A stretch of DNA of 64,000 nt. Source: Claveliimonas bilis. Its GTDB lineage: Bacteria > Bacillota > Clostridia > Lachnospirales > Lachnospiraceae. This document shows, piece by piece, positions 21,812-36,671 of the stretch (its first letter is position 1; each line of letters opens with the position of its first letter). Both the position numbers and the translations under genes were made by a program. The notes below the pieces were generated by a model. It saw nothing but the letters and a program-made list of their open reading frames with translations. It was not told the DNA's origin and did not search any database. The stretch covers positions 2,790,001-2,854,000 of the forward strand of contig NZ_AP024845.1 of NCBI RefSeq assembly GCF_020892095.1. The letters run 5' to 3'.

Positions 21812-21844
21812 CAGGGTGTTCCTTTTTGATGCCCTGTATTTTTT
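21809..21844 (+). terminator. Riboswitch expression-platform terminator
   Basis: Stem ATACAGGG/CCCTGTAT (21809-21816 with 21832-21839) followed by TTTTTT. It begins directly at the 3' end of aptamer 2, where an alternative pairing with the aptamer could block it. Confidence 0.75.
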
Positions 21845-21926
21845 GTACGCATTTTTAAGGTTCATTTCGGCGCGGAGCACGCCGGAAGAAGAATTGGTGA
21901 TTTCAAAAGAAAAGGAGATGAGAAAA

Positions 21927-23270
21927 ATGAATGAGAACAAAGGATTGAAAAAAAATCTTGGAGTGGCTACCGCGATGGCCACAGTAGTAGGTTGTGTGAT
22001 CGGCTCCGGCGTGTTTTTTAAGCCACAGGCAATCTATACGGTGACTGGAGGTGCACCGGGGCTGGGAATACTGGCATGGGTGATCACAGGACTTGCCAGT
22101 ATTGCAGCGGCTCTTACCTTTGCAGAAGTTGCGATCATGATACCAAAGACCGGAGGGATGGTGGCCTATCTGGAAGAGATTTATAGTCCGATTGTTGGCT
22201 TTCTTGCAGGATGGATACAGACACTGGTGTTTTATCCGGCTATGATTTCCGCGCTGGCAGTGGCTTTTGCCCAGCAGGCGGCGTTGTTTGTGGGTGAGAG
22301 CTTTATGATCCCCATTGCTGTGGGTGTGATCATTCTTATTATTTTTCTTAACAGCCTCGGTTCCAGCGTGGGTGGCGGCGTGCAGGTTATTTTTACTGTA
22401 TGTAAATTAATTCCTCTGCTTCTTCTTATGGTATTTGGTTTCCTGAAAGGCGGCGGCGGAAATGCAATCTTTACTCCAATGGTGGGAGAGGGACTGAATC
22501 CGGCAGTTGTGCTGGGGCAGCTGATGGTTGCAATTCTTTTTGCATTTGAAGGATGGACAAATGTAGGGGCTATTGCAGGAGAAATGAAAAAGCCGGGAAG
22601 AGATCTTCCTATTGCAATTGTAGGTGGCGTATCTGTGATCATGGCAGTTTATTTTGTAATCAATATCGCTTATCTCTGGGTACTTCCGGCAGATCAGCTG
22701 GCGTCTCTTTCAGCTCCGGCTTCGGCGGTGGCGCTTGAATTGTTTGGAGAGATGGGCGGAAAGCTGGTGGCAGTAGGAATTATGATTTCTGTATTTGGAG
22801 CCTGCAACGGATTTGTACTTTCCGGATCCAGAGTGGCATATTCCTTGGCAGCAACAAAGAGCCTTCCGTTTTCAGACACACTGGCTGTTCTTAATAAAGC
22901 GCAGGTACCGGTCAACTCCATTATCCTTGTAGGAGGAATCGGCTGCATATATGCAGTCAGCGGAAGATTTAATCTCCTGACAGACTTGGCGGTCATATCA
23001 AGCTGGATGTTCTATACTTTGACATTTATTGGTGTTATGAAACTTCGCCGGGACTGGCCGGACGCTGTCCGCACATATAAAGTTCCTCTTTATCCGGTGG
23101 TTCCTATTATTGCGATCGTAAGCGGCATTTATGTAATCATAAATCAGATTTTCCTTGCAGGAATACAGTCTACACTACTGTCTGCCGGAAGCATACTTGT
23201 GACGCTTATTGGCATTCCGGTGTACAGGAATGTCAGGAAAAGAGCGGTGCTGCAGGAAAAAAAGCGATAA
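21927..23270 (+). CDS. APC-family amino-acid permease under glycine riboswitch control
   Basis: A 447-aa integral membrane transporter of the amino acid/polyamine/organocation superfamily, closest in look to the LAT/SteT-like branch: about 12 hydrophobic segments, with GSGVFFKPQ in helix 1 and FAFEGWTNVGAIAGEMKKPGRDLP around helix 6. The ATG at 21927 is chosen because of an AAGGAG site; the open frame starts earlier but overlaps the riboswitch terminator. The riboswitch suggests that glycine, or a related small amino acid such as alanine or serine, is the substrate; exchange or uptake direction is unknown. Confidence 0.88.
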   Translation: MNENKGLKKNLGVATAMATVVGCVIGSGVFFKPQAIYTVTGGAPGLGILAWVITGLASIAAALTFAEVAIMIPKTGGMVAYLEEIYSPIVGFLAGWIQTLVFYPAMISALAVAFAQQAALFVGESFMIPIAVGVIILIIFLNSLGSSVGGGVQVIFTVCKLIPLLLLMVFGFLKGGGGNAIFTPMVGEGLNPAVVLGQLMVAILFAFEGWTNVGAIAGEMKKPGRDLPIAIVGGVSVIMAVYFVINIAYLWVLPADQLASLSAPASAVALELFGEMGGKLVAVGIMISVFGACNGFVLSGSRVAYSLAATKSLPFSDTLAVLNKAQVPVNSIILVGGIGCIYAVSGRFNLLTDLAVISSWMFYTLTFIGVMKLRRDWPDAVRTYKVPLYPVVPIIAIVSGIYVIINQIFLAGIQSTLLSAGSILVTLIGIPVYRNVRKRAVLQEKKR

Positions 23271-23608: not shown

Positions 23609-25255
23609 GCAATTTGGGACGTAACACTTTTAAAGTTCAATGTCATTAAGTTTAGAAATTAAGATTCGAAAAGCATGGAACAAGAAATATTCCATGCTTT
23701 TTTGATGAAAACACTTGACAAATCATACAAAATTTGTGGCGAAGCCATTTGAATATATACTTTTTTGGAGGTTTCAAATGGCTGATTATTCCCTTATCAC
23801 AAAACAAAAATTAATACACATTATGAAAAAAATGTCCCGTAGTTCTGATTCTTATGTAAAACGTCCCGGAAAAGATTTTTCCCGTTCCAGAAAAATTTCC
23901 TTTTTTGATACCTTACGTTTCCTTCTTTCTTTAGGCGCTAAGTCTTTGGATAAGGAACTTTTGGACTTTTTCTCCTATCGCCCGGATCTTCCTACCTCTT
24001 CCGCCATGCTGCAACAGCGCGGCAAACTCAAGCCCAATACTATGAAAGTCCTCTTTTCTGTTTTTACGGCCTCTCTCCCCAAACATTCCAACTTCCATGG
24101 CTATCATCTTCTTGCTGCTGACGGTTCAGAGCTCTCCTTCCCGGAAAATAAAAAAGAACCTCTCTGCCATCGAAAGATCCCTAACACACAAAAAGGGAAA
24201 AACGCAATCCATCTAAACGCTTTATACCATCTAAACAGCGGTATTTTTGATCAGGTCCTGTTTCAGCCTGTCCATGAAAAAGATGAACACTCCGCCCTTA
24301 TTACCATGCTGGCACAAACGGAAATTTCCAGCAAAGTCATCCTTACTGCCGACCGGGGATATGAAAGTTATAATACCTTTGCACATATCTTGGAAAAAGG
24401 ATGGAATTTTGTGATCCGGGGACGGCAGGGAGACAGGGGGATCCTTTCCAGTTTAGCCATTCCCGATCAGGAACAATTCGATGTGGAATGTCCTGTCGTC
24501 ATCTGTAAAAAACACTGCCGTGGCACCAAAGAACAGCCGGAACTCTACAAACGGATCCGATCCGGTGCAAAGTTTGACTTTTTTACGGAAGAGCAAACGG
24601 AATATCCGATGAAACTACGAGTGATAAAGTTGAAAGTAAACGAAGATCTTTCCGAGATCCTTTTTACGAATCTGTCCAAAGAAGAAATGCCCGTTGGAAT
24701 GCTCCAGGAACTCTACCGTATGCGTTGGATGATAGAGACAGCATTTTCCCAGCTAAAATATAATCTTGGGGCCAGTGCGCTTCATTCAAAAAGAATAGAG
24801 TATGTCCTGCAGGAACTGTATGCAAAAGTCATCATGTTCAATTATTGTAAAAGCATCCTGTTTCACATCTCGCTTCCCCAAAAAACATCTTGGAAATATG
24901 ATTATCAGATCAGCCTGAGTACAGCAGTAGATATCTGCTTAAAATCATGGCGCTGTCCAAATGGGACAGCGCCGCCAGATGTTGAAATATTACTGCTTAA
25001 ATATAAAGTCCCAATAAGAAGGGAAAGAAGTTTTCCCAGAACACCTTCCCCAAAAGCAGTGATCTATTTCACTTATAGGATAGCATAAAAGGGGAAAATA
25101 CGGAACAGGAATTTGAAGCAGACAGCGGTCTGCTTTATCGGTCTGCATAAAAGAATGACAGCGTAGATTTGGATATCAACACTGTCTTTCTTTTGAGGAC
25201 TCATTTTCTAAACTTAATGACATTGCTTTTTAAAAGTGTTACGTCCCAAATTGCA
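23608..25255 (+). mobile_element. IS4-family insertion sequence, intact
   Basis: A 1.65-kb element. Its ends are inverted repeats of about 50 bp: TGCAATTTGGGACGTAACAC at 23608 is matched by the reverse complement ending at 25255, and similarity continues inward through TCATTAAGTTTAGAAA. A single full-length transposase gene lies between. No flanking target duplication of 9-12 bp is visible (left ...TTTTTTG, right GTAAATGG...), which suggests rearrangement at one end. A mini-copy of the ends occurs at 36676. Confidence 0.88.
23778..25088 (+). CDS. IS4-family transposase
   Basis: A DDE transposase of 436 aa from the ATG with a GGAGG site at 23778. The catalytic triad is visible: Asp115 (LLAADGSEL), Asp192 (ILTADRGYE) and Glu320 within the IS4 signature Y-x2-R-x3-E-x6-K (Tyr313, Arg316, Glu320, Lys327). 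No frameshift or stop interrupts it, so the element may still be active. The coding strand is rich in C and T, unlike its neighbours, consistent with a mobile origin. Confidence 0.93.
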   Translation: MADYSLITKQKLIHIMKKMSRSSDSYVKRPGKDFSRSRKISFFDTLRFLLSLGAKSLDKELLDFFSYRPDLPTSSAMLQQRGKLKPNTMKVLFSVFTASLPKHSNFHGYHLLAADGSELSFPENKKEPLCHRKIPNTQKGKNAIHLNALYHLNSGIFDQVLFQPVHEKDEHSALITMLAQTEISSKVILTADRGYESYNTFAHILEKGWNFVIRGRQGDRGILSSLAIPDQEQFDVECPVVICKKHCRGTKEQPELYKRIRSGAKFDFFTEEQTEYPMKLRVIKLKVNEDLSEILFTNLSKEEMPVGMLQELYRMRWMIETAFSQLKYNLGASALHSKRIEYVLQELYAKVIMFNYCKSILFHISLPQKTSWKYDYQISLSTAVDICLKSWRCPNGTAPPDVEILLLKYKVPIRRERSFPRTPSPKAVIYFTYRIA

Positions 25256-25426: not shown

Positions 25427-26512
25427 ATGAAAAAAAGAGTATTAGCTGCATTTTTATGTATGGCTATGACAGCTTCCGTACTGGCAGGCTGCGGCTCTAA
25501 CACATCCACAGAGGAGGAGACTACCCAGGAGTCTACGGATGAGACAACAGATGAGAGCGCAGAAAGTGAACCTGTAGAGGCAGTGGAGACAAAAACTGTC
25601 TACGTAACCCCACAGTGGGTAAACAGCGCATTAAATGGCGAGCAGGAAGGATACGAGGACATTCTGATTGCGGAGGTAGGATATGGCGATGTGGCAGACA
25701 GTACGTCATATCAGGAAGGTCATATTCCGGGAGCCATATATGTGGATCTTTGTGAAGTTGAGGATGCCACAGGAAGTGAGGAAGGAAAATATAATCTCTT
25801 GTCAGCAGATGAAGTAGTAGATAATCTCTTGAGTCATGGTATTACTAAAGATACAAAAGTAGTACTTTATGGTTCGGGCTGTCCGGAAAGACAGGCTTAC
25901 GGATATATATGGGCAGGTGTTGAGGATGTCAAGATTATTAATGGCGGCATTGATGCTTGGAAGAGTGCAGGATATGACACAGAGACAGAAGCAAACGAGG
26001 GCGAGCCGGTTGAAGATTTTGGAACAGAAGCTCCCGTACACCCGGAATATTGGGTAAGTATTGAAACTGCAAAAGAAAAGTTGGAAACAGATGATAATTT
26101 TAAGCTTGTCAGTATTCGGAGCGAAGAAGAATGGCTTGGAGAAACAAGCGGATATAACTATATGGATAAGGCGGGAGAACCAGAAGGCGCCGTATGGGGG
26201 AAAGACAGTGATGCATATAAAAACGATGACGGTACAGTAAAAAGCTTGGAGGAAGTAAAAAAAGATGTATGGGCTGATGCGGATTTTACTTTAGATAATG
26301 AACTTTCTTTCTACTGTGGTACAGGATGGAGAGCATGTGTTCCTTTCCTTGTTCTTTATGAGAACGGTTATGAAAATATTTCGGTATATGATGGCGGATG
26401 GTATGAATGGCTGATGCATGATGATTATCCGGTACAGGTAGGCGATCCTGCAAGTGATGACTGTGAGCACACAACTGTAGGAGAGCTTCCGACAGGCAAA
26501 GCTGCCAAATAG
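25427..26512 (+). CDS. Secreted rhodanese lipoprotein 1 (sulfurtransferase-like)
   Basis: A 361-aa lipoprotein: basic start, hydrophobic core and lipobox LAGC (Cys22), followed by an acidic Ser/Thr/Glu linker (about 25-56). Two rhodanese-like domains follow. The first (about 57-190) has YGSGCPERQ, with Gly where the catalytic Cys would sit and Cys152 three residues later. The second (about 205-335) has the active-site loop CGTGWRA (Cys297) and ends in a DGGWYEW motif. An inactive first and active second domain is the layout of two-domain thiosulfate sulfurtransferases. The ATG at 25427 is chosen for its AAGGAGG site. It has its own promoter and terminator; the true sulfur or selenium donor is unknown. 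Confidence 0.85.
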   Translation: MKKRVLAAFLCMAMTASVLAGCGSNTSTEEETTQESTDETTDESAESEPVEAVETKTVYVTPQWVNSALNGEQEGYEDILIAEVGYGDVADSTSYQEGHIPGAIYVDLCEVEDATGSEEGKYNLLSADEVVDNLLSHGITKDTKVVLYGSGCPERQAYGYIWAGVEDVKIINGGIDAWKSAGYDTETEANEGEPVEDFGTEAPVHPEYWVSIETAKEKLETDDNFKLVSIRSEEEWLGETSGYNYMDKAGEPEGAVWGKDSDAYKNDDGTVKSLEEVKKDVWADADFTLDNELSFYCGTGWRACVPFLVLYENGYENISVYDGGWYEWLMHDDYPVQVGDPASDDCEHTTVGELPTGKAAK

Positions 26513-26657: not shown

Positions 26658-27092
26658 ATGAAAAAAATAGCATATATTTTGGCGCTTATTCTGGAGATTG
26701 CTGCTCTGACCGGCGCCGGTATTATACACTATTTTGCAGAACGGAAACTGGGAATGGTTCGGTATCTGAATTATAAGAATATGACATGGGAGCGGGATTA
26801 TCCTGTAGGTACTTTGAAAACAGTATCCTTACTAATAGCTGCAGTATTAACGGTGCTTATTTTCCTTCTCTTTCTGAAGAAAAGAAAGGAAGTTTCCCGG
26901 CTTACAATGGTTATGAATATTTGTATGATTGCTCTGACTGCGCTGTACGGGGGATATACACTTATAAACTCTACTGACACTATGGCAGATTATTATTTTA
27001 TCAGTATTCTCTTTCTTTTGGCGGCTGTAATTCAGATCGTTAAAACAGGCATCGCAGTGTTGATGGCAAAAAGAGGAGAAGAGGGAAAGTAA
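26658..27092 (+). CDS. Small four-helix membrane protein, unknown function
   Basis: A 144-aa protein not recognised as a named family. It has about four hydrophobic helices (roughly 5-22, 55-75, 85-105 and 115-138) and a short polar loop containing WERDYPVG between the first two. The ATG at 26658 is used because a GGAGG site lies 6 bp upstream; an ATG 12 bp earlier overlaps that site. It is first in a tightly packed run (next gene 1 bp away) leading to the VTT proteins and the radical SAM gene, so it probably belongs to that system's membrane part. Confidence 0.7.
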   Translation: MKKIAYILALILEIAALTGAGIIHYFAERKLGMVRYLNYKNMTWERDYPVGTLKTVSLLIAAVLTVLIFLLFLKKRKEVSRLTMVMNICMIALTALYGGYTLINSTDTMADYYFISILFLLAAVIQIVKTGIAVLMAKRGEEGK

Positions 27093-27093
27093 A

Positions 27094-27768
27094 GTGAAAA
27101 ATAAGAAACTTTGGCTTTTCATTAGCCTTGTGATTCTGATCCTGATACTCAATCACATATTTAAATGGTCCTCTTATCTTGGAGACACCGATAATCTGAC
27201 ATTTTTGAAAGCAATGATACAGGATAATCTGGCGGGAGCCATTGCAATCTATATGCTGGTAACGATTGTAGGAAGTGTTGTTCTGGCACTGCCGGGCGTT
27301 ACTTTTGCCATTTTGGCAGGGCTTTTGTTCGGTCCTGTATTGGGAACAATATTATGTACGATATCTGCCACAGCAGGTGCCGTCCTGGCATTTCTTGCAG
27401 GAAGATTTTTTTTAAGGGACAGTATAAGGCCTGCAGCCATGAAAAACCAATATCTGAAAAAATGGCTGTTTGATGAATCGGGGAAAAATCAGCTTTTCGT
27501 TCTTATGATCACAAGGCTTGTGCCGGTGTTTCCCTATAATCTGCAGAATTTTGCCTATGGTGTAACAGATATCGGATTTGTTGCTTATACAGTAGGTTCT
27601 TTTGTATTTATGATTCCGGGGACGGCTATGTACACAATCGGAACTGCCGGACTTGCAGATGCAAAAAACAGAATAATGTACATTGGAATTGCTGTAATAA
27701 TAGCGGTAGTGGTGATCCTGGCAGGAGTGTTTTTGAAGAAACGCTATATAGAAAATGTGGAGGAATAA
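27094..27768 (+). CDS. TVP38/TMEM64-type (VTT domain) membrane protein 1
   Basis: A 224-aa membrane protein of the DedA/TVP38 VTT family. Family marks are LPGVTFAILAGLLFGPVLGT (re-entrant region), a glycine/alanine-rich helix, and the second half RLVPVFPYNLQNFAYGVTDI. VTT proteins are linked to lipid scrambling or transport, but their substrates here are unknown. The GTG start lies 1 bp after the previous stop with a GAGGGA site. A second, diverged VTT protein follows at 28747, with an Fe-S protein between them. Confidence 0.85.
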   Translation: MKNKKLWLFISLVILILILNHIFKWSSYLGDTDNLTFLKAMIQDNLAGAIAIYMLVTIVGSVVLALPGVTFAILAGLLFGPVLGTILCTISATAGAVLAFLAGRFFLRDSIRPAAMKNQYLKKWLFDESGKNQLFVLMITRLVPVFPYNLQNFAYGVTDIGFVAYTVGSFVFMIPGTAMYTIGTAGLADAKNRIMYIGIAVIIAVVVILAGVFLKKRYIENVEE

Positions 27769-27769
27769 G

Positions 27770-28750
27770 ATGGAAAGCAGATATCCCGGGGAGGCATGTA
27801 TTCACTGCCACCTGTGCCAAAAGAACTGTATGTTTCTTTCAAAATATAAAATAGATATCGGTGATACCGAAAAGTTAAAAAAGCTTTCCATGCACTGCTT
27901 CTTGTGCGGAAAATGTACCAGGGTATGCCCTAAAGGAATTGATGGAAGGAAGATCATTCTGGAGATGAGAAGGCAGGCAGCAACAGAAAATGGGGAAAAA
28001 CCGGCGGAAAAAGGATATGGTATGCTGCTTTGGGAAAAGAGGAATTACCGTTTTCGGAATTATAAAAATGCCGGTGGGAAAAGCGTGCTGTTTCCCGGAT
28101 GTAACTTCCCGTCCTTTTACCCGGAGACAACAAAATATCTGGCTGAATTACTGAAAAAAGAGGCAGATATAGGAATTGTTTTTGATTGCTGCGGAAAGCC
28201 GGTATCAGAGTTGGGGTTAGAGAAAGAGGAAAAAAGAATTCTGGCAGATATGAATAAACGTCTGGATCAGCTTGGAGCGGAAGAAGTAGTTATGGTCTGC
28301 CCCAACTGTTATCATTTTCTGAAAGGGCGTCTTCATGCCAGGGTGACAGATATTTACAGTAAACTGCTGGAGCTGGGGCTGGGCAGAAAAATTCCCGGTG
28401 AGATCCGGATTTTTCCGCCATGTCCGGACCGTAAAGGAAAAGAGCTTCTTGAAAAAATGTCTGTATTTTTGGAAGGTGAACCGTGCCTGGAGGAAAAGGT
28501 TCAGTGCTGTGGTCTGGGAGGATGTGCGAGTGTGAAAGAACCAAAGCTTGCGGCAGAAATAACGGAGGATCTTGACAGGAGACAGACAGTATATACTTAT
28601 TGTGCATCCTGCAGCGGGGCTTTCACAAGAAAAGGATATAAAGCAGAACATCTGCTTTTGAAAATACTGGGAAGAGAGGAGACAGCCGATGTGAAGAAAT
28701 CTCTTTTAAACAGAGTAAAGTCGAGGTACTGGAGGAAGAAAAAAAGATGA
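27770..28750 (+). CDS. Fe-S oxidoreductase with CCG domains (HdrB/GlpC-like)
   Basis: A 326-aa cytoplasmic redox protein. The N-terminus carries two 4Fe-4S motifs, CIHCHLCQKNC and CFLCGKCTRVCPKG. Two cysteine-rich CCG-type modules follow: FPGCNFP with FDCCGKP, and CCGLGGC with YCASCSG. This is the plan of the electron-transfer subunits of heterodisulfide reductase and anaerobic glycerol-3-phosphate dehydrogenase. The ATG at 27770 has a GGAGG site in the end of the previous gene. It overlaps the next gene by 4 bp. It could supply electrons to the radical SAM or thiol chemistry of the island; that is inference. Confidence 0.82.
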   Translation: MESRYPGEACIHCHLCQKNCMFLSKYKIDIGDTEKLKKLSMHCFLCGKCTRVCPKGIDGRKIILEMRRQAATENGEKPAEKGYGMLLWEKRNYRFRNYKNAGGKSVLFPGCNFPSFYPETTKYLAELLKKEADIGIVFDCCGKPVSELGLEKEEKRILADMNKRLDQLGAEEVVMVCPNCYHFLKGRLHARVTDIYSKLLELGLGRKIPGEIRIFPPCPDRKGKELLEKMSVFLEGEPCLEEKVQCCGLGGCASVKEPKLAAEITEDLDRRQTVYTYCASCSGAFTRKGYKAEHLLLKILGREETADVKKSLLNRVKSRYWRKKKR

Positions 28751-29454
28751 AACAGAAAAACTGGGTAAAAAAAGGAATCATACTGGGGATCATTCTTGTA
28801 TGTGCGGCGGTTTATTTTTTTGTGCCGCCGGTAAAAAGCGGTATGAATAAGGTATTCAGCATGTTTGCCAGTGGAGATTTTGATGTAGTAAGAGAGTTTG
28901 TGGCATCCTATGGTGGCTATGCAGCGTTGGTGTCCTTCCTCCTTATGATCTTCCAGTCTGTGGCGGCGCCGCTTCCGGCTTTCCTGCTTACTTTGGCAAA
29001 TGCCAATCTTTTTGGATGGTGGCAGGGGGCTGCCCTTTCCTGGAGCAGCGCTATGGCAGGGGCAGCTGTGTGTTTCTTTATTGCCCGTATATTGGGGAGG
29101 GATGTTGCAGAAAAGCTGACCAGCAAGGCAGGGATCGCGCAGATCGATACCTTTTTTGAAAAATACGGAAGGAATACGATTCTGATCTGCCGTCTTCTGC
29201 CTTTTGTGTCCTTTGACATTGTCAGCTATGCTGCGGGACTTACTTCTATGTCTTTTAAATCATTTTTTATTGCTACAGGCATCGGACAGCTGCCGGCCAC
29301 TATTGTGTATTCTTATGTGGGAGGAATGCTGACAGGAGGAGCACAGCTTCTGATGACAGGACTATTGATATTGTTTGCCTTATCAGCTCTTATTGTAATG
29401 CTAAGGAAGATATACATGGACAGACAGAAAAAGACAAAAGGAGGAAATGAATAA
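28747..29454 (+). CDS. TVP38/TMEM64-type (VTT domain) membrane protein 2
   Basis: A 235-aa membrane protein of the VTT family. Key segments: PLPAFLLTLANANLFGWWQG, the helix WSSAMAGAAVCFFIARILGR and RLLPFVSFDIVSYAAGLTSM. Its start overlaps the preceding stop by 4 bp and its stop overlaps the next start by 1 bp, so it is translated in one coupled operon with the Fe-S protein and the AhpD-like protein. Having two diverged VTT proteins in one operon suggests handling of a lipid-linked or membrane-permeant product. Confidence 0.83.
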   Translation: MKQKNWVKKGIILGIILVCAAVYFFVPPVKSGMNKVFSMFASGDFDVVREFVASYGGYAALVSFLLMIFQSVAAPLPAFLLTLANANLFGWWQGAALSWSSAMAGAAVCFFIARILGRDVAEKLTSKAGIAQIDTFFEKYGRNTILICRLLPFVSFDIVSYAAGLTSMSFKSFFIATGIGQLPATIVYSYVGGMLTGGAQLLMTGLLILFALSALIVMLRKIYMDRQKKTKGGNE

Positions 29455-29786
29455 TGGAAACTTATTATAACCCGGAAGATCTTGCGAAATTTGGGACTAT
29501 CGGCGAGGAAGCGCCACAGCTGGCAGAGAAATTTTTTGATTACTATGGAGCTGTATTTGAAGAAGGAGCTTTGACAGCCAGGGAGAAATCCTTGATCGCT
29601 CTTGCGGTTGCTCATGCAGTGCAGTGTCCTTACTGCATTGACTCCTACACAAATGACTGCCTCAATAAAGGAGTCAGTGAGGAGCAGATGACAGAAGCCG
29701 TACATGTGGCTGCTGCAATCCGAGGAGGGGCCACTTTGGTACATGGAGTACAGATGAAAAATATTGTAAAGAAACTGGAGCTGTAA
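29454..29786 (+). CDS. AhpD-like CxxC protein (arsenosugar-cluster peroxidase-like)
   Basis: A 110-aa single-domain protein of the carboxymuconolactone decarboxylase/AhpD fold. It holds the redox pair Cys58-Pro-Tyr-Cys61 in AHAVQCPYCIDSYTND. It resembles the small peroxidase-like protein found beside ArsS radical SAM genes; some relatives carry selenocysteine in this motif, whereas here both positions are ordinary Cys codons. The start overlaps the previous stop by 1 bp and the radical SAM gene follows after 4 bp, so the two products are likely made together. Confidence 0.82.
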   Translation: METYYNPEDLAKFGTIGEEAPQLAEKFFDYYGAVFEEGALTAREKSLIALAVAHAVQCPYCIDSYTNDCLNKGVSEEQMTEAVHVAAAIRGGATLVHGVQMKNIVKKLEL

Positions 29787-29790
29787 GGGT

Positions 29791-30774
29791 ATGAATCAGG
29801 CATTGGAAGATTTAAAGAATTTGACCAATATTCCGGATTTTGAAGAGAGGATCACGGAAGAAGAGTACAGGTATACGACTGACAGGCTGGAAGTGATGCA
29901 GATTAATGTGGGAAAGCTCTGCAATCTTGCCTGCAAGCACTGCCATGTGGAAGCAGGGCCTGCAAGGACAGAGGTTATGGACCGGAAAGTGATGGAAGCC
30001 TGTCTTAAAGTATGCAAAGAGCAGAAGGTAGAAACAATCGATATTACCGGCGGTGCGCCGGAGATGAATCCGAATTTTGAATGGCTGGTAGATGAGGCAT
30101 GCAAAATATGCAGCCATGTAATTGTACGGACGAACCTTGTTATATTAAAGGAAGAGAAATACAGGCATCTGCCGAAATTTTATGCAGATCACAAGGTGGA
30201 GATTGTCTGTTCGCTTCCCTACTACCGCGCAAAAGAAATGAATCGTGTCAGAGGAGAGGGAACATTTGAGACAGCCATTGAAATGATCCGGGAGCTGAAT
30301 GAGCTGGGATACGGGAAAGAGAACGATCTGGTGCTTAATATGGTCTACAACCCGGCCGGAGCCTTTTTCCCTCCTGTGCAAAGTGCCATGGAGAAAGAGT
30401 ACAAGTCCAGACTGTGGCAGGATTATGAAATAGTGTTTCACAATCTCTTTACTATAACCAATAACCCGACGGGGCGTTTTGAGGCTTTCCTGAAACGAAG
30501 CGGAAATCTGGAAAGTTATATGAAAAAACTGTCTGACGCATTTAACGCGGCTACCCTTCCGGGGCTTATGTGCCGTTTTCAGATTTCAGTAGGTTATGAC
30601 GGGCAGGTATATGACTGTGATTTCAATCAGGCTGCGGACCTGCCGGTCCTGACGGGGGAGACAATTTTTAATATGGTTGGGAAATCTTTCAAAAAGCGGA
30701 AAATCTGTCTGGCAAATCACTGTTACGGATGTACTGCAGGACAGGGATCCAGCTGCGGCGGCGCTACAGAATAA
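29791..30774 (+). CDS. arsS: Radical SAM/Cys-rich protein, ArsS family
   Basis: A 327-aa radical SAM enzyme. The cluster motif is Cys44-x3-Cys48-x2-Cys51 (CNLACKHC), followed by DITGGAPEMNP. The C-terminal domain is cysteine-rich, with Cys306, Cys311, Cys314 and Cys322 in CLANHCYGCTAGQGSSCGG, the family mark. Characterised relatives (ArsS) attach the 5'-deoxyadenosyl group to dimethylarsinous acid on the way to arsenosugars. Here no arsenite methyltransferase accompanies it, so the acceptor may be another group such as a sulfur or selenium compound. No selenocysteine codon is needed. The symbol is by family, not proven function. Confidence 0.85.
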   Translation: MNQALEDLKNLTNIPDFEERITEEEYRYTTDRLEVMQINVGKLCNLACKHCHVEAGPARTEVMDRKVMEACLKVCKEQKVETIDITGGAPEMNPNFEWLVDEACKICSHVIVRTNLVILKEEKYRHLPKFYADHKVEIVCSLPYYRAKEMNRVRGEGTFETAIEMIRELNELGYGKENDLVLNMVYNPAGAFFPPVQSAMEKEYKSRLWQDYEIVFHNLFTITNNPTGRFEAFLKRSGNLESYMKKLSDAFNAATLPGLMCRFQISVGYDGQVYDCDFNQAADLPVLTGETIFNMVGKSFKKRKICLANHCYGCTAGQGSSCGGATE

Positions 30775-30808
30775 AGGAAAAGACAGACAGGATAAAAAGG
30801 AGAAGAAG

Positions 30809-31237
30809 ATGACAAAAGAAGAGATTAAAGATCTTTTTATGCAGGGAATTGACTGTTCCCAGGTGGTGACAACAGAATTCGCAGAAAAAATGCAGCTGAC
30901 AGAAGAACAGGCAAGAAAAGTGTCTGCCTGTTTTGGAGGCGGCATGATGTGCGGAGAAACATGCGGGGCAGTGACAGGAGCTTTGATGGTCATCGGTATG
31001 GTCTATGGGCACAGCAGGGAAGGGGATCAGGAGCAAAAGGACAGGATGACTGCCAAAACAGCAGAATTTAAACGGCTTTTTGCTCAAAAGTATCCTTCCT
31101 GCATGTGCAAAGAACTTCTCGGACATGATATATCAAAGCCGGGTGAAATGGAAAAAGTTATGGGAAAAGGACTTTTGTTTGATTTCTGCCCTCAAGTGGT
31201 AGCAGATACAATTGAGATACTGGAGAAGATTCTGTAA
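30809..31237 (+). CDS. C_GCAxxG_C_C family putative redox protein
   Basis: A 142-aa protein of the C_GCAxxG_C_C family, small proteins of unknown role often linked to redox functions. Seen: CSQVV near residue 16, the central FGGGMMCGETCGAVTGALMVIG, then CMCKELLG and a last Cys in FDFCPQVV. The spaced cysteines suggest a metal or disulfide site. The ATG at 30809 has an AAGGAG site; the frame is open further upstream into the radical SAM gene, but that part lacks family similarity. It lies 34 bp after arsS and 2 bp before the transferase fusion gene. Confidence 0.82.
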   Translation: MTKEEIKDLFMQGIDCSQVVTTEFAEKMQLTEEQARKVSACFGGGMMCGETCGAVTGALMVIGMVYGHSREGDQEQKDRMTAKTAEFKRLFAQKYPSCMCKELLGHDISKPGEMEKVMGKGLLFDFCPQVVADTIEILEKIL

Positions 31238-31239
31238 CA

Positions 31240-32571
31240 ATGAAAAGAGCAGTCATTATTTTTACAAGAGTTCCAGAGCCGGGAAAGACGAAAACCAGGA
31301 TGATGCCTCATCTTTCCCCGGTTCAGTGCGCCCGTCTTCACACCTGCTTTCTCAAAGATATTGTTATGGAGTGCCGAAACGGCGGGGCGGATGTCTTTGT
31401 CAGTTATACGCCGGAAGAAGGGTGGAAAACACTGAAAAACATTCTGGGAGAGGTAAAGGGATGGATTCCGCAGACAGGAAAGCATCTTGGAGAGCGGATG
31501 TATGGAGCTATGAAAGAGGTGCTGGATCAGAAATATGATTCCTGCCTTCTCATAGGTGCCGATGTACCGGAACTTGAGGTTAAAATTCTTAAAAAAGCGT
31601 TTGATGTACTTGAAACAGAAGATGTAGTCTTTGGAAAAACCGTAGATGGAGGATATTATCTGACAGGAATGAAACAGCCTGTGAAAGAAGTTTTTTCCCT
31701 GGATACTTACGGACATGGGAAGGTACTGGAAGAGACAGTGTTAAAAATCGAATCGGCCGGATTTTCCGTTGGATTTACAGACACGTTATCCGATATGGAT
31801 ACACCAAAGGACTTAAGAGGCTATAAAAAGCGGATGCTGGAAGATGTTCGTTTGAAGGAGAGTTTTACAGGCAGATATCTGGCAAAGATTAGTAAGATTT
31901 CCATTATCATTCCTATCTACAATGAGAGCCGTACCATTGAAAAAATGCAAAGACAGCTTTTGCCTCTTCTTGGAAAGTGTGAGATTCTATTTGTGGACGG
32001 GGGAAGCACAGACGATACACTGGAGAAAATTTCTCCTAGATTCCAGGTGATACGGTCAGAAAAAGGCCGGGCCTGGCAGATGAATAAAGGGGCGGAGCAA
32101 AGTACCGGAGATATTCTGTTTTTCCTGCACTGCGACAGTGAGCTGCCGGATCATCCATTGGAGAGAATGCGCAAGGTCATGAGAGATTACAGGGCAGGGT
32201 GTTTCGGTATTGCTTTCCACTCCAGAAATTTCTTCATGTTTACATGCAGGGTGATCTCTAATCACAGGATCAAAGATCGCAAAGTCATGTTCGGGGATCA
32301 GGGTATTTTTCTGGATCGAGACCTCTTTTTTGAAGCAGGGAGATTTCCGGAGATACCTATCATGGAAGACTATCAGTTTTCTCTTACTTTAAAAGAGATG
32401 GGAGTAAAGCTTGGGATGGCAGACAGGCGTATCTACACGTCAGATCGCAGGTTTCCGAAAGGGACGATTCCGAAATTGAAACTTATGTGGAGAATGAATC
32501 GATTAAGGAAAATGTACAGAGACCAGGAAGATATAGGAAAGATTGCTCAAATGTACCGGGATGTAAGGTAG
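31240..32571 (+). CDS. Fused TIGR04282-type and TIGR04283-type transferase
   Basis: A 443-aa fusion of two proteins that are usually separate genes. Residues about 1-200 match the TIGR04282/DUF2064 nucleotidyl- or glycosyltransferase-like domain (FTRVPEPGKTKTRM, GADVPEL, VFGKTVDGGYYL). Residues about 213-443 are a GT2-type glycosyltransferase of the TIGR04283 kind (SIIIPIYNESRTI, LFVDGGSTDDT, FFLHCDSELP, GDQGIF, MEDYQFSLTL). Both families are known neighbours of ArsS-type radical SAM genes and are thought to add the sugar part. The fusion supports their acting on one substrate. It has no membrane helices. Confidence 0.85.
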   Translation: MKRAVIIFTRVPEPGKTKTRMMPHLSPVQCARLHTCFLKDIVMECRNGGADVFVSYTPEEGWKTLKNILGEVKGWIPQTGKHLGERMYGAMKEVLDQKYDSCLLIGADVPELEVKILKKAFDVLETEDVVFGKTVDGGYYLTGMKQPVKEVFSLDTYGHGKVLEETVLKIESAGFSVGFTDTLSDMDTPKDLRGYKKRMLEDVRLKESFTGRYLAKISKISIIIPIYNESRTIEKMQRQLLPLLGKCEILFVDGGSTDDTLEKISPRFQVIRSEKGRAWQMNKGAEQSTGDILFFLHCDSELPDHPLERMRKVMRDYRAGCFGIAFHSRNFFMFTCRVISNHRIKDRKVMFGDQGIFLDRDLFFEAGRFPEIPIMEDYQFSLTLKEMGVKLGMADRRIYTSDRRFPKGTIPKLKLMWRMNRLRKMYRDQEDIGKIAQMYRDVR

Positions 32572-32594
32572 CGCTGTATACAGGGAGGAAGATT

Positions 32595-33638
32595 ATGGGA
32601 AGTCAGACAGGAAACAGTACAGAAAAAGACATCGAAAAGACAAAGGGTCTAAGCAGCTATATCCAAACAGCAGGCTACAGAAGAGGGCTTCATCTTCCTG
32701 ATAATGTGCAGGAAGAGTACAGTCTGCTGGGACAGGGAGAATACAACAGAAACTATTTATTTACACACCCGGTGACGGGACAAAAGCTGGTCCTGCGGAT
32801 TAATTTTGGAAGTCAGATGCACCTTGCTCATCAGATTGAATATGAGTACAATGCGCTGAAGCTTCTGGAAGAATCAGGACGTACGCCGCGTCCTTTCTAT
32901 GTAGATGGAAGTCTGAAAGATTTTACAAATGGGGTTATGGTTATGGAATATCTGCCGGGACATGCACTGGATTATCACACAGAACTTTTTCGGGCAGCGG
33001 GATGTCTTGCAGATATACACAGCGTTTCTCTTCCGAAATGCACCCATCTGATAGTGCCTGAAAATCCAGTCCGAGCGATATTGGAAGAGTGCGAGCAGAT
33101 GGTATGCACTTATATGGAAAGCAATCTGGCAGATGCGGATAAAAAGCAGAAGATACGTCTGCTGCTTGATCTTGCCTGGAAACAGGCGGACGCACTTGCC
33201 GCGGCTTCCTATCAGTGTTGCATCAACACAGAACTCAATTCCACCAATTTTCTCATGAATGGAACAGAAGGCCCGGATTATCTGATCGACTGGGAAAAAC
33301 CGATCTGCGGGGAACCGGCCCAGGATCTGGGACATTTTCTTGCGCCTACCACTACCTTCTGGAAGACGGATGTTATCCTTGATGAGATGGAGATGAAGGC
33401 ATTTGTAGAGAAGTATATAGAGGAAGTGAATGGGAGATTTCCGGTAAATGATCTGTGGGAGAGGACAAACACCTATATGACAGTTACCTGTCTTAGGGGA
33501 ATTACCTGGTGTGCCATGGCCTGGGTGGAATACCAGCAGCCGGGGAGGGAACTTGTCAATGAATCGACCTGGCGGAAGCTGGAGGCTTATTTGACAGATG
33601 AATTTTTGGGGAAAATGAAGAGGTTTATTGAAAAATGA
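32595..33638 (+). CDS. APH/choline-kinase-fold phosphotransferase-like protein, altered active site
   Basis: A 347-aa protein with the aminoglycoside phosphotransferase fold: N-lobe GQGEYNRNYLF and LVLRINF (lysine/arginine of the ATP site), MVMEYLPG hinge, then the catalytic loop and metal-binding LIDWEKP (Asp232). The loop that normally reads HGDxxxxN is Asn211-Thr-Glu213-x4-Asn218, so the catalytic Asp is Glu and the His is Asn. It may be a slow kinase, a related transferase or a binding protein. The ATG at 32595 has a GGGAGG site. It ends with a 4-bp overlap into a membrane-protein gene, suggesting a shared substrate. Confidence 0.75.
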   Translation: MGSQTGNSTEKDIEKTKGLSSYIQTAGYRRGLHLPDNVQEEYSLLGQGEYNRNYLFTHPVTGQKLVLRINFGSQMHLAHQIEYEYNALKLLEESGRTPRPFYVDGSLKDFTNGVMVMEYLPGHALDYHTELFRAAGCLADIHSVSLPKCTHLIVPENPVRAILEECEQMVCTYMESNLADADKKQKIRLLLDLAWKQADALAAASYQCCINTELNSTNFLMNGTEGPDYLIDWEKPICGEPAQDLGHFLAPTTTFWKTDVILDEMEMKAFVEKYIEEVNGRFPVNDLWERTNTYMTVTCLRGITWCAMAWVEYQQPGRELVNESTWRKLEAYLTDEFLGKMKRFIEK

Positions 33639-34243
33639 AAAAACGGAACATCATAAAAGGAATACTGTCGCTGATAATTGCCGCGGTCATTACCGCACTG
33701 ACAGCCATTATACCAATTGTGGCTTCAGTGGGAAAAGCAGTTTACGCCAATAATGTTGCAGTAATATTTATTGGAATGGAATTAGGACCTGCAGCAGGTA
33801 TCGTTTATACAATACTGTCGAGTTTTATATTAAACAATATCGGAATGGGAAGCGGGGTACTTCTTTATGTCCTGCTGTTTCAGATTGTGGAGGCCGGACT
33901 GCTGGGTCTTCTATGGCATAAAAAGCGTATGCATATGGGGAGATACTTATTGACAGTAATTGGAGGGACCTTCCTTTTAAAACCGCTTTCATATATGCTG
34001 TTTTATATCTTTAACAGCAGCATACTGGGAGATATAACATTTCTGGAATATATGAAAAGTAATTATCTTCTCTATCTTCAAAATGGGTGGACAGATACAC
34101 TGATCATATATGCAACAGGAATTATCATAGCCTATATACTTCAGTATATTTTGGATATGATATTTGAAAAAATGGAAAAAAGGAGAAAAACAAATGAAAT
34201 AGAAGGTATTAATTGCAGTGCTCACCGCGCTGACAGCTATTAG
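33635..34243 (+). CDS. Six-helix membrane protein, possibly ECF-type substrate-binding component
   Basis: A 202-aa hydrophobic protein with about six membrane segments (near 8-30, 38-58, 60-85, 95-118, 120-140 and 150-172). The segment VAVIFIGMELGPAAGIVYTILS resembles the layout of small ECF transporter S components, but I cannot name a substrate. It starts inside the stop of the kinase-like gene (ATGA). Its last 16 codons overlap the best start of rhodanese 2, which is unusual, and the tail after EKRRK looks non-conserved. It might import a molecule used or phosphorylated by its upstream partner. Confidence 0.55.
   Translation: MKKRNIIKGILSLIIAAVITALTAIIPIVASVGKAVYANNVAVIFIGMELGPAAGIVYTILSSFILNNIGMGSGVLLYVLLFQIVEAGLLGLLWHKKRMHMGRYLLTVIGGTFLLKPLSYMLFYIFNSSILGDITFLEYMKSNYLLYLQNGWTDTLIIYATGIIIAYILQYILDMIFEKMEKRRKTNEIEGINCSAHRADSY
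34194..34202 (+). other. In-frame TAG at codon 3 of the best start of rhodanese 2
   Basis: An AGGAG site (34181-34185) is placed 8 bp before ATG-AAA-TAG (34194-34202), and the frame then continues without a break for 486 codons. With one base changed (T to A) the product would begin MKKKVLIAVLTALTAISVAAC, a normal lipoprotein signal like those of the two sister genes. Confidence 0.85.
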
Positions 34244-35660
34244 TGTGGCGGCATGCGGAAAGCAGGAAACAGAAAAAGAAAGTGAAGAAACAATCACGCC
34301 TGCAACAGGTGAAATAACAGCAGTAACAGTTGATGATCTGGATCCGGAAAAGGTGCAGATTATTGATGTGAGAGAAGAAGAACAGTATATCGGTTGGACA
34401 ACAGAAGAAGGTTCTGGCGGACATATTGAAAATGCTGTGGATTTCCCGGAAAGCTGGCTGGATATGGATCTGGAGAAGGAAGCAGCTATCGGAACGACCA
34501 TGCAGCTGGAATTAGAAAGACGCGGTCTGGATGTGACAAAAGAAACGGTTCTCTATGATAATGATACTGTTTCACAGGAGACAGCAGAAAAGTATCAGGC
34601 TATCGGTTTTGAAAATTTATCTGTTCTGGACGGCGGATACAATGCATATGTGGAAAGCGGAAAAGCAACAGAAAGTCTGGAACATTATGAGATGTATGTG
34701 TATCCGCAGTGGGTGCAGGATCTTGCAGACGGTAAAAATCCTGAGACTTTCGATGGAGGTGATTTCCAGATCATAGAAGTGTCTTTGGCCAGCGAAGAGG
34801 ATGAATATGCAAATGGTCATATACCGGGAGCTATCAACGTAAACGCAGATGAGATCAATCATGTGCCGGGTCCCCGTGCTCTTGCAGATTATGAAGTAAT
34901 TCCGATGGAAGAACAGTTAAAATACTGGAACCGTCCTTCTGACGAAGAGATACAGAAGAAACTGGAAGATCTGGGAATCCAAAAAGACACTACAGTAGTG
35001 CTTTATGGTACAACAGCAGCGACTACAGCATCAGCCAGAATGGGACTGATCCTGAAATATGCAGGTGTTGAGGATATCAGACTTCTGAATGGTGGAAAGA
35101 CACTGTGGACATTGGAAGGAAGAGAACTGGATACAGAGAAACACGAACCGGAACACGTGGAATTTGGTGCAGAAGTACCTGTAAATCCTGAAGTTATTTA
35201 TGACTACGATGAAGAGCTGGAAGTTGTAAACAATGAAAACGCTGTTGTTGCGTCTATCAGAAGCTGGCCGGAATACACAGGAGAAGTAAGCGGTTATACT
35301 TATATAGGAGAAGCAGGAGATATTGCCAATGCACGCTTTGGTTATGCAGGATCCGATCCTTACAGCATGGAAGATTTCAGAAATGTTGACAATACAATGT
35401 TCAACTATGAAATGATCGCAGATCGCTGGGAATTATGGGGAATCACACCAGATAAAGAGGTGTCCTTCCACTGCGGAACCGGCTGGAGAGCAAGTGAAAC
35501 CTATTTTTATGCGTATGCATTAGGCTGGGAGGACATTCATGTATATGACGGAGGCTGGTATGAATGGCATAAAATTGCCGACAGTCCGAGAAAAGCTGAC
35601 GGACTTCCGGATGATGCACCGGAACAGGAACCACAGGAATATTTTATTGTTTCAGAATAA
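34218..35660 (+). CDS. Rhodanese lipoprotein 2, three domains, signal peptide disrupted
   Basis: 480 aa if read from GTG 34218. Three rhodanese-like domains are visible: about 40-150 (IIDVREEEQY, VLDGGYNAY), about 165-310 (GHIPGAINVNADE, VVLYGTTAATT with no Cys) and about 325-460 (HCGTGWRASE active-site loop, VYDGGWYEW). Only the last has the catalytic Cys. A lipobox-like VAAC is near the N-terminus, but the Lys-rich start of the signal is cut off by a TAG at 34200. From GTG the signal would be hydrophobic but uncharged, with only a weak AGAAGG site upstream. It may be poorly exported, made by readthrough, or a fresh pseudogene. Confidence 0.75.
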   Translation: MLTALTAISVAACGKQETEKESEETITPATGEITAVTVDDLDPEKVQIIDVREEEQYIGWTTEEGSGGHIENAVDFPESWLDMDLEKEAAIGTTMQLELERRGLDVTKETVLYDNDTVSQETAEKYQAIGFENLSVLDGGYNAYVESGKATESLEHYEMYVYPQWVQDLADGKNPETFDGGDFQIIEVSLASEEDEYANGHIPGAINVNADEINHVPGPRALADYEVIPMEEQLKYWNRPSDEEIQKKLEDLGIQKDTTVVLYGTTAATTASARMGLILKYAGVEDIRLLNGGKTLWTLEGRELDTEKHEPEHVEFGAEVPVNPEVIYDYDEELEVVNNENAVVASIRSWPEYTGEVSGYTYIGEAGDIANARFGYAGSDPYSMEDFRNVDNTMFNYEMIADRWELWGITPDKEVSFHCGTGWRASETYFYAYALGWEDIHVYDGGWYEWHKIADSPRKADGLPDDAPEQEPQEYFIVSE

Positions 35661-35750
35661 ATGGCATTGCCCCTTGTACACCAACGCTATACTTATTGAA
35701 AAAGCCTATATTAATATGTCATAAATCTATAAACAATTCTGACAATTCGC

Positions 35751-35779
35751 TTGAATGGAAAAGAATAACCTTTTATAAT
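35751..35779 (+). promoter_or_regulatory. Promoter of rhodanese 3
   Basis: TTGAAT (35751-35756), 17 bp, TATAAT (35774-35779), 35 bp before the start codon. The rhodanese 3 gene can therefore be transcribed on its own. Confidence 0.65.
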
Positions 35780-35813
35780 TCTTATAAACCGAAAGATAAG
35801 GAGGAAAGGTTTT

Positions 35814-36671
35814 ATGAAAAAAAGAATTGTGGCAATTTTAATGGCGGCTGCTATGGCATCCGCAATGATTACAGCATGTGGATCAGAAGAAACACAGACA
35901 ACTTCAGAGGAATCTACAGATTCCGAATCAGGCAGTGAAAGTACGGAAGGGGATTACCAGTATGTGTCTGCCGCTGATGCTGTGGCTGCAGCAAAAGAGG
36001 GAGGGACTCATGTATTGGATGTTCGCGAATGGAACAATTATGTGAGCGGAAGAGTAGTAAATTCTGAATGGTGTCCGATTTTCCCTCTGGAAGATGACTC
36101 TCTTGTAGAGACAATGACTGCCTATGCAGAAGAAAACTTTGGAGATGATGAAGATATTTATATTATCTGCAACAGCGGACAGCGTGGAGCACAGAAGGCA
36201 ACAGGTGTTCTGGAAGATGCAGGTATTGACGCTTCCCGCATTTATACAGTAGAAGGCGGGGCGGAGGCTCTGGCAGAGGAGAGTGGCGCGCTTACTACAA
36301 ATCGTACGGAGGATAGTATTGAGTGGCAGTATGTATCCGGTGCGGAAGCAGTGGAAGCCGTTGGAAATGAAGACATTCAGATTCTGGATGTAAGAGACGA
36401 TGATACATATGCGCAAGGGCATCTGGAAGGTTCATTGCAGTGCAATCTGAAGGAGATTGAGGATGCAGATGCACAGACTGCTCTCTATGAAATGGCTACA
36501 TCAGAGATGGATCCGGAGAAACCGGTATATCTTTTGTGCTACAGCGGAAATAACTGTGCAAAGACCGGTATTTCTGTACTGAAAGATGCAGGATATGATG
36601 TATCCAATCTTTATATTATTGAAAACGGAGCAAAAGATGCTGATGTAGCGGCTGCTTTTGTGACAGAGTAG
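35814..36671 (+). CDS. Secreted rhodanese lipoprotein 3, two catalytic-type domains
   Basis: A 285-aa lipoprotein with signal start MKKRIVAILM, lipobox ITAC (Cys22) and a Ser/Glu-rich linker. Two single-domain-type rhodanese modules follow. The first (about 48-155) has LDVREW and the loop CNSGQRG with Cys119. The second (about 172-280) has LDVRDDDTYAQGH and the loop CYSGNNC with Cys242. Unlike its two sister proteins, both domains keep the Cys. An AAGGAGG site precedes the ATG. It would act outside the membrane, perhaps passing sulfane sulfur or selenium to a partner; substrates are unknown. Confidence 0.85.
   Translation: MKKRIVAILMAAAMASAMITACGSEETQTTSEESTDSESGSESTEGDYQYVSAADAVAAAKEGGTHVLDVREWNNYVSGRVVNSEWCPIFPLEDDSLVETMTAYAEENFGDDEDIYIICNSGQRGAQKATGVLEDAGIDASRIYTVEGGAEALAEESGALTTNRTEDSIEWQYVSGAEAVEAVGNEDIQILDVRDDDTYAQGHLEGSLQCNLKEIEDADAQTALYEMATSEMDPEKPVYLLCYSGNNCAKTGISVLKDAGYDVSNLYIIENGAKDADVAAAFVTE

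Follow-up and report, generated by a model that had tools for sequence, protein, structure and literature searches.

Gene content and layout of the island

The window analysed here is the 64,000-nucleotide stretch at positions 2790001-2854000 of the single-contig 3.04-Mb genome of Claveliimonas bilis, and our subject is an island in it that surrounds the gene of an ArsS-family radical SAM enzyme. The gene families in the window were assigned by scans with family models (Pfam, TIGR and NF models) against the curated cut-offs. The island is a real and recurrent ArsS-based system, and direct sequence evidence supports its module architecture and its link to a gene stretch of Escherichia coli, ydjXYZ-ynjABCDE. 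Its genes are as follows, in window coordinates.

25427-26512, + strand: rho1, secreted rhodanese lipoprotein with two rhodanese domains (PF00581, 85 bits), a YnjE relative
26658-27092, + strand: mem1, small membrane protein with no family model over cut-off
27094-27768, + strand: VTT-A, membrane protein (PF09335, 76 bits), counterpart of E. coli YdjX
27755-28750, + strand: HdrB-like Fe-S protein (PF02754) with a dicluster ferredoxin part and a cysteine-rich CCG part
28747-29454, + strand: VTT-B, membrane protein (PF09335), counterpart of E. coli YdjZ
29454-29786, + strand: CMD/AhpD-like CxxC protein of the ArsS-system type (TIGR04169, 205.3 bits, cut-off 120)
29791-30774, + strand: ArsS-family radical SAM enzyme (TIGR04167, 443.2 bits, cut-off 300)
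30809-31237, + strand: C_GCAxxG_C_C redox protein (PF09719, 103 bits; TIGR01909, 70.4 bits)
31240-32571, + strand: DUF2064-GT2 fusion (TIGR04282, 190.6 bits, and TIGR04283, 221.5 bits, both over cut-off)
32595-33638, + strand: small-molecule kinase of the APH/choline-kinase fold (PF01636, 58.8 bits)
33635-34243, + strand: membrane protein, weakly ECF-S-like (PF12822, 18.5 bits, below the cut-off of 30.7)
34218-35660, + strand: rho2, YnjE-type three-domain rhodanese (2wlr, E=1.5e-83; PF00581)
35814-36671, + strand: rho3, two-domain rhodanese lipoprotein (PF00581, 82.5 bits)

An initial annotation, made from the sequence alone, had named the families of this island, and every one of them was confirmed by the family scans. 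Its description of tight packing stands in part: the intergenic distances from 26658 to 35660 are mostly a few base pairs (1, -14, -4, -1, 4, 34, 2, 23, -4 and -26 bp), but the overlaps are not all of 1-4 bp as claimed, with -14 and -26 among them, and the gaps reach 34 bp. All three flanking rhodaneses that it described carry PF00581, although the first lies just outside the interval 26658-36671 to which it had assigned them. The outer rhodanese genes, rho1 and rho3, are separated from the packed block by 145 and 153 bp. In the scan 28 promoter-like sites were found compared with 25.0 in shuffled sequences, and 21 terminator-like sites compared with 8.5; no operon boundary was drawn.

The loops of all three rhodaneses are of the catalytic type, with CGTGWR in rho1 and rho2 (CGTGWRAC when read further in rho1) and CNSGQR in rho3, and a lipobox is present in rho1 (LAGC) and rho3. 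The start of rho2 is uncertain (34194-34218): an ATG preceded by AGGAG meets a stop two codons on, and the listed start is the downstream GTG. In the window ArsS, the radical SAM cysteines C44, C48 and C51 are conserved in the alignment together with C261, C276, C311, C314 and C322. The C-terminal motif GSS[C/U]GG is present, and TGA replaces its Cys codon in several relatives. Cysteines of the HdrB-like protein are conserved in its family alignment as well. Selenocysteine beyond the stop codons of the island itself was considered and rejected, as the ArsS, CMD and C_GCAxxG_C_C genes end in TAA and the frames of the hdrB and kinase genes continue only five codons past TGA.

The predicted structure of the kinase (pLDDT 90.1) aligns with 3dxp at a VIA-align Z of 22.1, with choline kinase at 21.4 and with N-acetylhexosamine 1-kinase at 20.2. 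An assignment as MtnK was considered, but the structural comparison does not point to it in particular: the matches to choline, sugar and homoserine kinases are level at Z 20-22, and an MtnK entry is found at Foldseek rank 49. The structure model of DUF2064 matches 3cgx, with a TM of 0.86 on the target, and 2i5e, a probable nucleotidyltransferase, with one of 0.76; profile searches reached 3cgx at 4.2e-43 and the dolichol-P-mannose synthase 5mlz at 1.8e-10. A dolichol-phosphate mannose synthase is the best match of the GT2 profile, which reached ArnC-type undecaprenyl transferases too. Homologues of mem1 adjoin rho1 and VTT-A in relatives (15 members labelled, the window copy included). The membrane protein at 33635-34243 gave no match outside the window at E<=1e-4 in the neighbourhoods searched with it.

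Across 20000-42000 no riboswitch reached the gathering thresholds apart from an upstream glycine riboswitch aptamer (RF00504, 36.1 bits) at 21718-21816, directly before an amino-acid permease gene at 21816-23270. An IS4-family transposase gene (23715-25088; NF033592, 154.9 bits) lies just upstream of the rho1 gene.

Recurrence of the island and its counterpart in E. coli

A contig scan was made for relatives of the window ArsS, and the best 80 of 118 were taken; Claveliimonas monacensis and Lachnoclostridium sp. An118 are named among the nearest. Two sets were compared, namely the window with 39 loci, mostly from Bacillota and Coriobacteriia, and 40 other ArsS loci (L017, a 4.3-kb contig, was excluded). 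L063 belongs by the tree to the window's group in this 40/40 count and is placed in the other group for its SelD and ArsM counts, from which the genome of L056 is absent. It was found that a rhodanese homologue (phmmer, over 25 bits) lies inside the ArsS locus in 26 of the 40 loci of the window's group and in none of the 40 others; a Pfam re-check of ten of the rhodanese proteins, the two weakest loci included, confirmed every one. ArsM homologues (over 60 bits), on the other hand, lie inside 2 of the 40 loci of the window's group (L030 and L069) and 11 of the 40 others. Because many loci are cut by contig ends, the locus counts are lower bounds.

The same division into two halves, with 96% SH-aLRT support, is seen in an ArsS tree made by a quick method with a midpoint root. 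When the labels are taken from locus plus cassette and L117 is omitted as a copy of L140, one half has 43 rows (27 with rhodanese, 4 with ArsM and 12 with neither) and the other has 41 (1, 12 and 28, respectively). Three Eggerthellaceae-type genomes have an ArsM-ArsS fusion and also a separate, stand-alone ArsS; both forms belong to the half of the tree that holds the window ArsS, where they occupy separate branches, a long one in the case of the fusions, and their coexistence may point to two roles. Two other kinds of protein were noted around ArsS. A BioB/PylB/HydE-like radical SAM protein recurs near it (L025:6011-7072, the copy with model scores; L047:10959-12017; L069:14469-15464), and very large surface rhodaneses with Big_2, fibronectin III, transglutaminase or choline-binding repeats occur in L032, L035, L027 and L038.

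The coupling of rhodanese and ArsS is also seen at the level of whole genomes. A genome search found ArsS in 9 of 145 relatives, and a rho1-type rhodanese at E<=1e-40 is present in all 9 compared with 3 of the 136 without ArsS; at E<=1e-10, the counts are 9/9 and 9/136. The association is thus recurrent, and the restriction to a single strain that the initial annotation had listed as counting against it was not what we found. One of the three rho1-positive, ArsS-negative genomes, G001, is from the window's genus and 82% complete. Its rho1, mem1, VTT-A, HdrB and DUF2064 genes run off a contig end, so that its ArsS may simply be missing. An order-wide survey gave ArsS in 3 of 392 genomes, which does not suffice for another test with SelD.

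DUF2064 (TIGR04282, E<=1e-12) is present in 38 of the 39 ArsS genomes of the window's group; 33 scores are over the cut-off, two are below it (132.8 and 116.2 bits), three are weak (57-59 bits) and one genome has none. In 17 genomes of the group it lies outside the fetched ArsS locus, either on the same contig, 12-17 kb away in five (L032-L035 and L094) and about 1 Mb or more in two (L030 and L039), or on another contig in ten, among which L080 and L086 look like one contig-split operon. The off-locus DUF2064 is mostly accompanied by VTT, HdrB and kinase genes and often by a rhodanese. Of the 14 control genomes, Synechococcus elongatus alone passes either threshold, E<=1e-60 for ArsS or E<=1e-12 for DUF2064. 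Some of the genes are also fused, as DUF2064-GT2 in the window, DUF2064-kinase in L053 and L096, VTT-DUF2064-HdrB in L026 and L044, and YdjY-rhodanese in L044.

YdjY leads to E. coli K-12, where ydjX (DedA), ydjY (annotated as 4Fe-4S ferredoxin-type), ydjZ (DedA), ynjA (AhpD-like), ynjB, ynjC and ynjD (an ABC importer) and ynjE (rhodanese) stand in a row; ynjF (CDP-alcohol transferase) is next, on the opposite strand. The genes ydjXYZ-ynjABCDE presumably form one operon and, to our knowledge, their role appears unsettled. The profiles were searched against 13 proteins of the ydj-ynj region, a set in which YdjX and YdjZ are the DedA proteins compared. The VTT-A profile matched YdjX at 1.3e-49 and the VTT-B profile matched YdjZ at 1.2e-98, while the island rhodanese profiles matched YnjE at 7.3e-110 and 9.4e-83, the latter for the rho1 family. 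A gap-free alignment of VTT-B with YdjZ over 229 residues gives 55% identity, and rho2 is 37% identical to YnjE. Judged from these matches, the VTT pair and the rhodaneses are homologous to YdjX, YdjZ and YnjE, a relationship that is new here and that the initial annotation had missed.

The match does not extend to the whole stretch. At E<=1e-8, the best 14 matches per query (complete for YdjY, YnjB and YnjC) include nothing from the window for YdjY and YnjBCD, YnjA is unmatched by the profile of the island CMD family at E<=10, and the HdrB profile has no match among the 13 proteins, YdjY included. Sister loci of the island do contain homologues of YnjBCD, and of YdjY in L028, L044, L124-L126 and L131. 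A YnjB-type binding protein is found in L123, L128, L164 and L167, over cut-off in L123, L164 and L167; it adjoins a nucleoside hydrolase gene in the first three of these four loci, and in L167 it is joined by a weak YnjF homologue (54.5 bits). In E. coli, selD (1846965-1848008) lies about 6 kb from ynjE (1839467-1840774), a proximity that may be due to chance as only one genome was looked at.

We tentatively read the island, at a probability a little under even, as a biosynthetic module of the ArsS type that is joined to a second module, YdjX-YdjZ-YnjE, where the acceptor atom of ArsS (called X below) is most likely sulfur or selenium and the E. coli stretch is an uptake-type branch. The two modules could instead be independent systems side by side, linked by neighbourhood only, one for sulfur/selenium redox and transport (YdjX, YdjZ, the HdrB-like protein and the rhodaneses) and the other an ArsS sugar pathway. 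The YdjX/YnjE-type part does occur without adjoining ArsS genes in E. coli and L167, and rhodaneses are absent from the 40 other ArsS loci. However, the VTT-DUF2064-HdrB fusions cross the proposed border, rhodanese and ArsS are coupled at the genome level, and VTT, HdrB, GT and often kinase and rhodanese remain clustered when ArsS is elsewhere. In genome G131 a single stretch (L164) even combines VTT, rhodanese, DUF2064, kinase, GT2, hydrolase and a YnjB-type importer. Two independent systems are therefore quite unlikely in our estimate.

A candidate route and the identity of the acceptor

The genes of the joined module suggest a route, with putative substrates at each step, in which X is adenosylated by ArsS and adenine is lost, followed by phosphorylation, nucleotide activation and glycosyl transfer. 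ArsS would add the 5'-deoxyadenosyl radical to X, a soft acceptor atom bound near Cys322 (Sec in some relatives). Adenine would be removed by a nucleoside hydrolase, which is encoded beside the system in other genomes; in the window strain another nucleosidase would be needed. The kinase would then phosphorylate the freed 5-X-ribose, DUF2064 would activate the 5-X-ribose phosphate as a nucleotide sugar, GT2 would transfer the activated sugar onto a lipid carrier or glycan, and the YdjX/YdjZ-type proteins would carry either a lipid-phosphate or the product through the membrane. X may be held in reduced form by CMD, C_GCAxxG_C_C and the HdrB-like protein. The secreted rhodaneses may supply or consume X outside the cell, and on this account X would most likely be sulfur or selenium. 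E. coli ydjXYZ-ynjABCDE, where ArsS is lacking, would represent an uptake-type branch of this chemistry. A more specific version, which we consider unlikely, is that the ArsS of gut anaerobes adenosylates sulfur or selenium and not arsenic; that kinase, DUF2064 and GT2 convert the product to a lipid- or glycan-linked 5-thio- or 5-seleno-ribose surface cofactor; that this cofactor serves as a carrier of sulfur or selenium outside the cell, loaded or used by secreted YnjE-type rhodaneses; and that uptake of the same metabolite is the task of E. coli ydjXYZ-ynjABCDE(F), which lies 6 kb from selD.

Genes that would fit some of these steps occur in the sister loci. A nucleoside hydrolase is present in the ArsS locus or cassette of L047 and L086 (PF01156); homology to the hydrolases identified adds L123, L125, L126, L128, L134 and L140, and also L164. 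In L140, the order of transcription is DUF2064, kinase, C_GCAxxG, CMD, ArsS, ArsM-like, GT2 and hydrolase. On the one contig of L032 and L124, polysaccharide genes lie between ArsS and the cassette (a Wzy-type ligase, a sugar transferase, a flippase and UDP-galactopyranose mutase), which suggests a surface glycan as the destination of the product. DedA-type proteins are reported as undecaprenyl-phosphate flippases (PMC11474028, PMC12893004). VTT-B scores 38 bits with the UptA model, whose cut-off is 250, and a flippase role for the VTT pair is thus a guess. In the open-access literature one paper brings together ArsS, radical SAM and arsenosugar; we found no paper joining a nucleoside hydrolase with arsenosugar, and none uniting any four of ArsS, rhodanese, gut, Lachnospiraceae, radical SAM and arsenosugar.

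The same genes might also serve salvage, with kinase, hydrolase and ABC importer marking the uptake and recycling of an X-nucleoside or X-sugar that others have produced, ArsS being one source only. The YnjB-type importer beside the nucleoside hydrolase in L123, L128 and L164 would fit, and so would G131, whose set comes without ArsS at E<=1e-60. The window island, however, has neither importer nor hydrolase, and DUF2064 and GT2 imply building, not breakdown; we regard salvage as very unlikely.

For the identity of X in the joined module, the catalytic-type secreted rhodaneses, the HdrB-like protein, the ArsM-less genome and the co-occurrence with SelD favour sulfur or selenium. SelD is over cut-off in 37 of the 39 ArsS genomes of the window's group, compared with 42 of the 136 ArsS-negative relatives and 24 of the 40 genomes of the other ArsS loci. 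In C. bilis itself, the selD gene (L120, contig about 909430-911950) has an in-frame TGA and stands next to a selA-like gene, and the strain appears to decode selenocysteine. Rhodanese is reported to bind selenium in vitro (PMC9369223), and the rhodanese-like ExtH belongs to a Geobacter gene cluster that is linked to the reduction of selenite and tellurite (PMC5877670). As a candidate ExtH, rho1 was rejected at 57 bits against a cut-off of 200.

As for arsenic, the window has TIGR04282 and TIGR04283 as expected of an arsenosugar pathway, but the C. bilis genome has no ArsM: the NF008823 search gave two matches at E<=1e-10 (48.5 and 44.2 bits), both read as generic methyltransferases. Acr3 has no match in the genome either (ArsB and ArsP were not searched for). 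Among the 39 ArsS genomes of the window's group, 24 have no ArsM at E<=1e-30 with the same model and 15 have one (8 over cut-off), compared with 21 (12 over cut-off) of the 40 genomes that carry the other loci; since the model misses ArsM-like genes in L066, L084 and L090, these ArsM counts are lower bounds. A satellite cluster was also observed about 4-6 kb outside the window (L158, contig about 2783677-2786197), where the gene of an ArsR-type regulator (over cut-off with NF033788 at 80 bits) is followed in sequence by those of a C_GCAxxG_C_C protein, a secreted rhodanese and a VTT-B-like protein. The same set adjoins the main island in L021.

The strongest competitor is an arsenosugar pathway after all, in which ArsS acts on methylated or inorganic gut arsenic from neighbours or food and the rhodaneses thiolate the product to thio-arsenosugars or protect the cell in a sulfidic setting. 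ArsS was reportedly characterised by Cheng et al. in 2021. Its adenosylation of arsenic in arsenosugar biosynthesis is reported (PMC12159101), its conserved cysteines are common to ArsM-linked ArsS, an ArsM-like gene accompanies the same core in L140 and L030, and an ArsR-type regulator adjoins the satellite rhodanese cluster. Against this pathway stand the lack of ArsM and Acr3 in the C. bilis genome and of ArsM in the 24 genomes above, and the conservation in many lineages of a block of about a dozen genes without the enzyme producing the known substrate. In E. coli, moreover, the YdjX-YdjZ-YnjE part is present while nothing matches ArsS at E<=1e-60. We consider the arsenosugar pathway rather unlikely.

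A number of observations weigh against a sulfur or selenium product of the joined module. The conserved ArsS cysteines are identical in the rhodanese group and in ArsM-linked ArsS. A changed active site in ArsM-less ArsS was looked for and rejected: 11 columns differ in the majority residue, none of them cleanly and none at the conserved cysteines, and the ArsM-linked ArsS of L030 has the residue of the rhodanese group at the differing columns wherever it is aligned. ArsS therefore gives no sign of a changed acceptor. L140 pairs its ArsM-like gene with the same CMD, C_GCAxxG, kinase, DUF2064, GT2 and hydrolase. In Suipraeoptans (L030, G014/G157) an ArsM-like gene adjoins that of ArsS, and CMD, a distant VTT-HdrB-GT cassette and distant rhodaneses are present as well; for the ArsM-like genes of both L140 and L030, the best model is NF008823 at 189 bits each, below its cut-off of 263. 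ArsM is also present in seven more of the genomes whose ArsS locus or cassette includes a rhodanese (L027, L043, L044, L053, L069, L080 and L086). The rhodanese/ArsM split tracks the two halves of the ArsS tree, so its labels do not count as independent events, and an independent-pairs test had only 6 informative pairs and no power. The Fisher value of 1.4e-13 for SelD and ArsS takes the genomes as independent and is overstated, for the counts share phylogeny. An in-frame TGA is found in 37 of the 37 over-cut-off SelD genes (27 of 51 in the relatives), so the SelD link may be to selenocysteine use and not to a selenium product. Finally, the window island has no nucleoside hydrolase gene, and G131 has VTT, rhodanese, DUF2064, kinase, GT2 and hydrolase but no ArsS at E<=1e-60.

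The interpretation in the initial annotation is thus partly supported. It had named as evidence against itself an arsM elsewhere in the genome together with arsenosugar production dependent on the operon; as far as sequence can tell, there is no such arsM. Its statement that ArsM, ArsR and an arsenite pump are lacking is borne out genome-wide for ArsM and, among the pumps, Acr3; given the regulator of the satellite cluster, the lack of ArsR is true of the island only. That rhodaneses stand "instead" of ArsM is too strong, as Suipraeoptans and the seven genomes carry both and L140 pairs an ArsM-like gene with the same core. A clean replacement of ArsM by rhodanese is ruled out by Suipraeoptans and by L069, where both lie in one locus. 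The proposed sulfur or selenium acceptor gains from the recurrence of rhodaneses and the ArsM-less genome but is not established, given the shared cysteines, L140, L030 and the co-occurrence with ArsM.

If the joined module is correct, it would give a stepwise route for ArsS sugars and an ArsS toolkit that is kept by many ArsM-less relatives, with gut and rumen records among them. The tie to the E. coli gene stretch would make the question testable in a laboratory strain, and the answer would bear on how gut bacteria handle dietary sulfur, selenium and arsenic.

Comparison with known systems

When compared with arsenosugar biosynthesis by ArsS, the island has the same radical SAM family, CMD partner, DUF2064 and GT2 families and conserved cysteines. 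It differs in that its genome is without ArsM and in the addition of the APH kinase, the HdrB-like protein, the YdjX/YdjZ-type VTT pair and the secreted rhodaneses. The E. coli stretch is alike in that YdjX and YdjZ, the counterparts of the VTT pair, flank a protein, though a different one, and are followed by an AhpD-like gene and a YnjE-type rhodanese, but there is no ArsS, DUF2064, kinase or GT2 there; YdjY is unmatched by the HdrB profile and YnjA by the CMD profile, and YdjY and YnjBCD are absent from the window's island.

The selenoneine system SenABC and the Geobacter ExtH cluster would share with the island the handling of selenium, with a selenosugar step (SenB) in the former and a rhodanese-like protein (ExtH) in the latter. 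The chemistry proposed for the island, in contrast, is a radical adenosylation, and rho1 is below the ExtH cut-off. Salvage of methylthioadenosine and 5'-deoxyadenosine proceeds by a nucleosidase and a kinase of the methylthioribose type. The likeness lies in depurination followed by an APH-fold kinase that acts on a 5-modified ribose; the island kinase, however, is not specifically MtnK-like, and the added nucleotidyltransferase-type and glycosyltransferase domains make the island route apparently anabolic.

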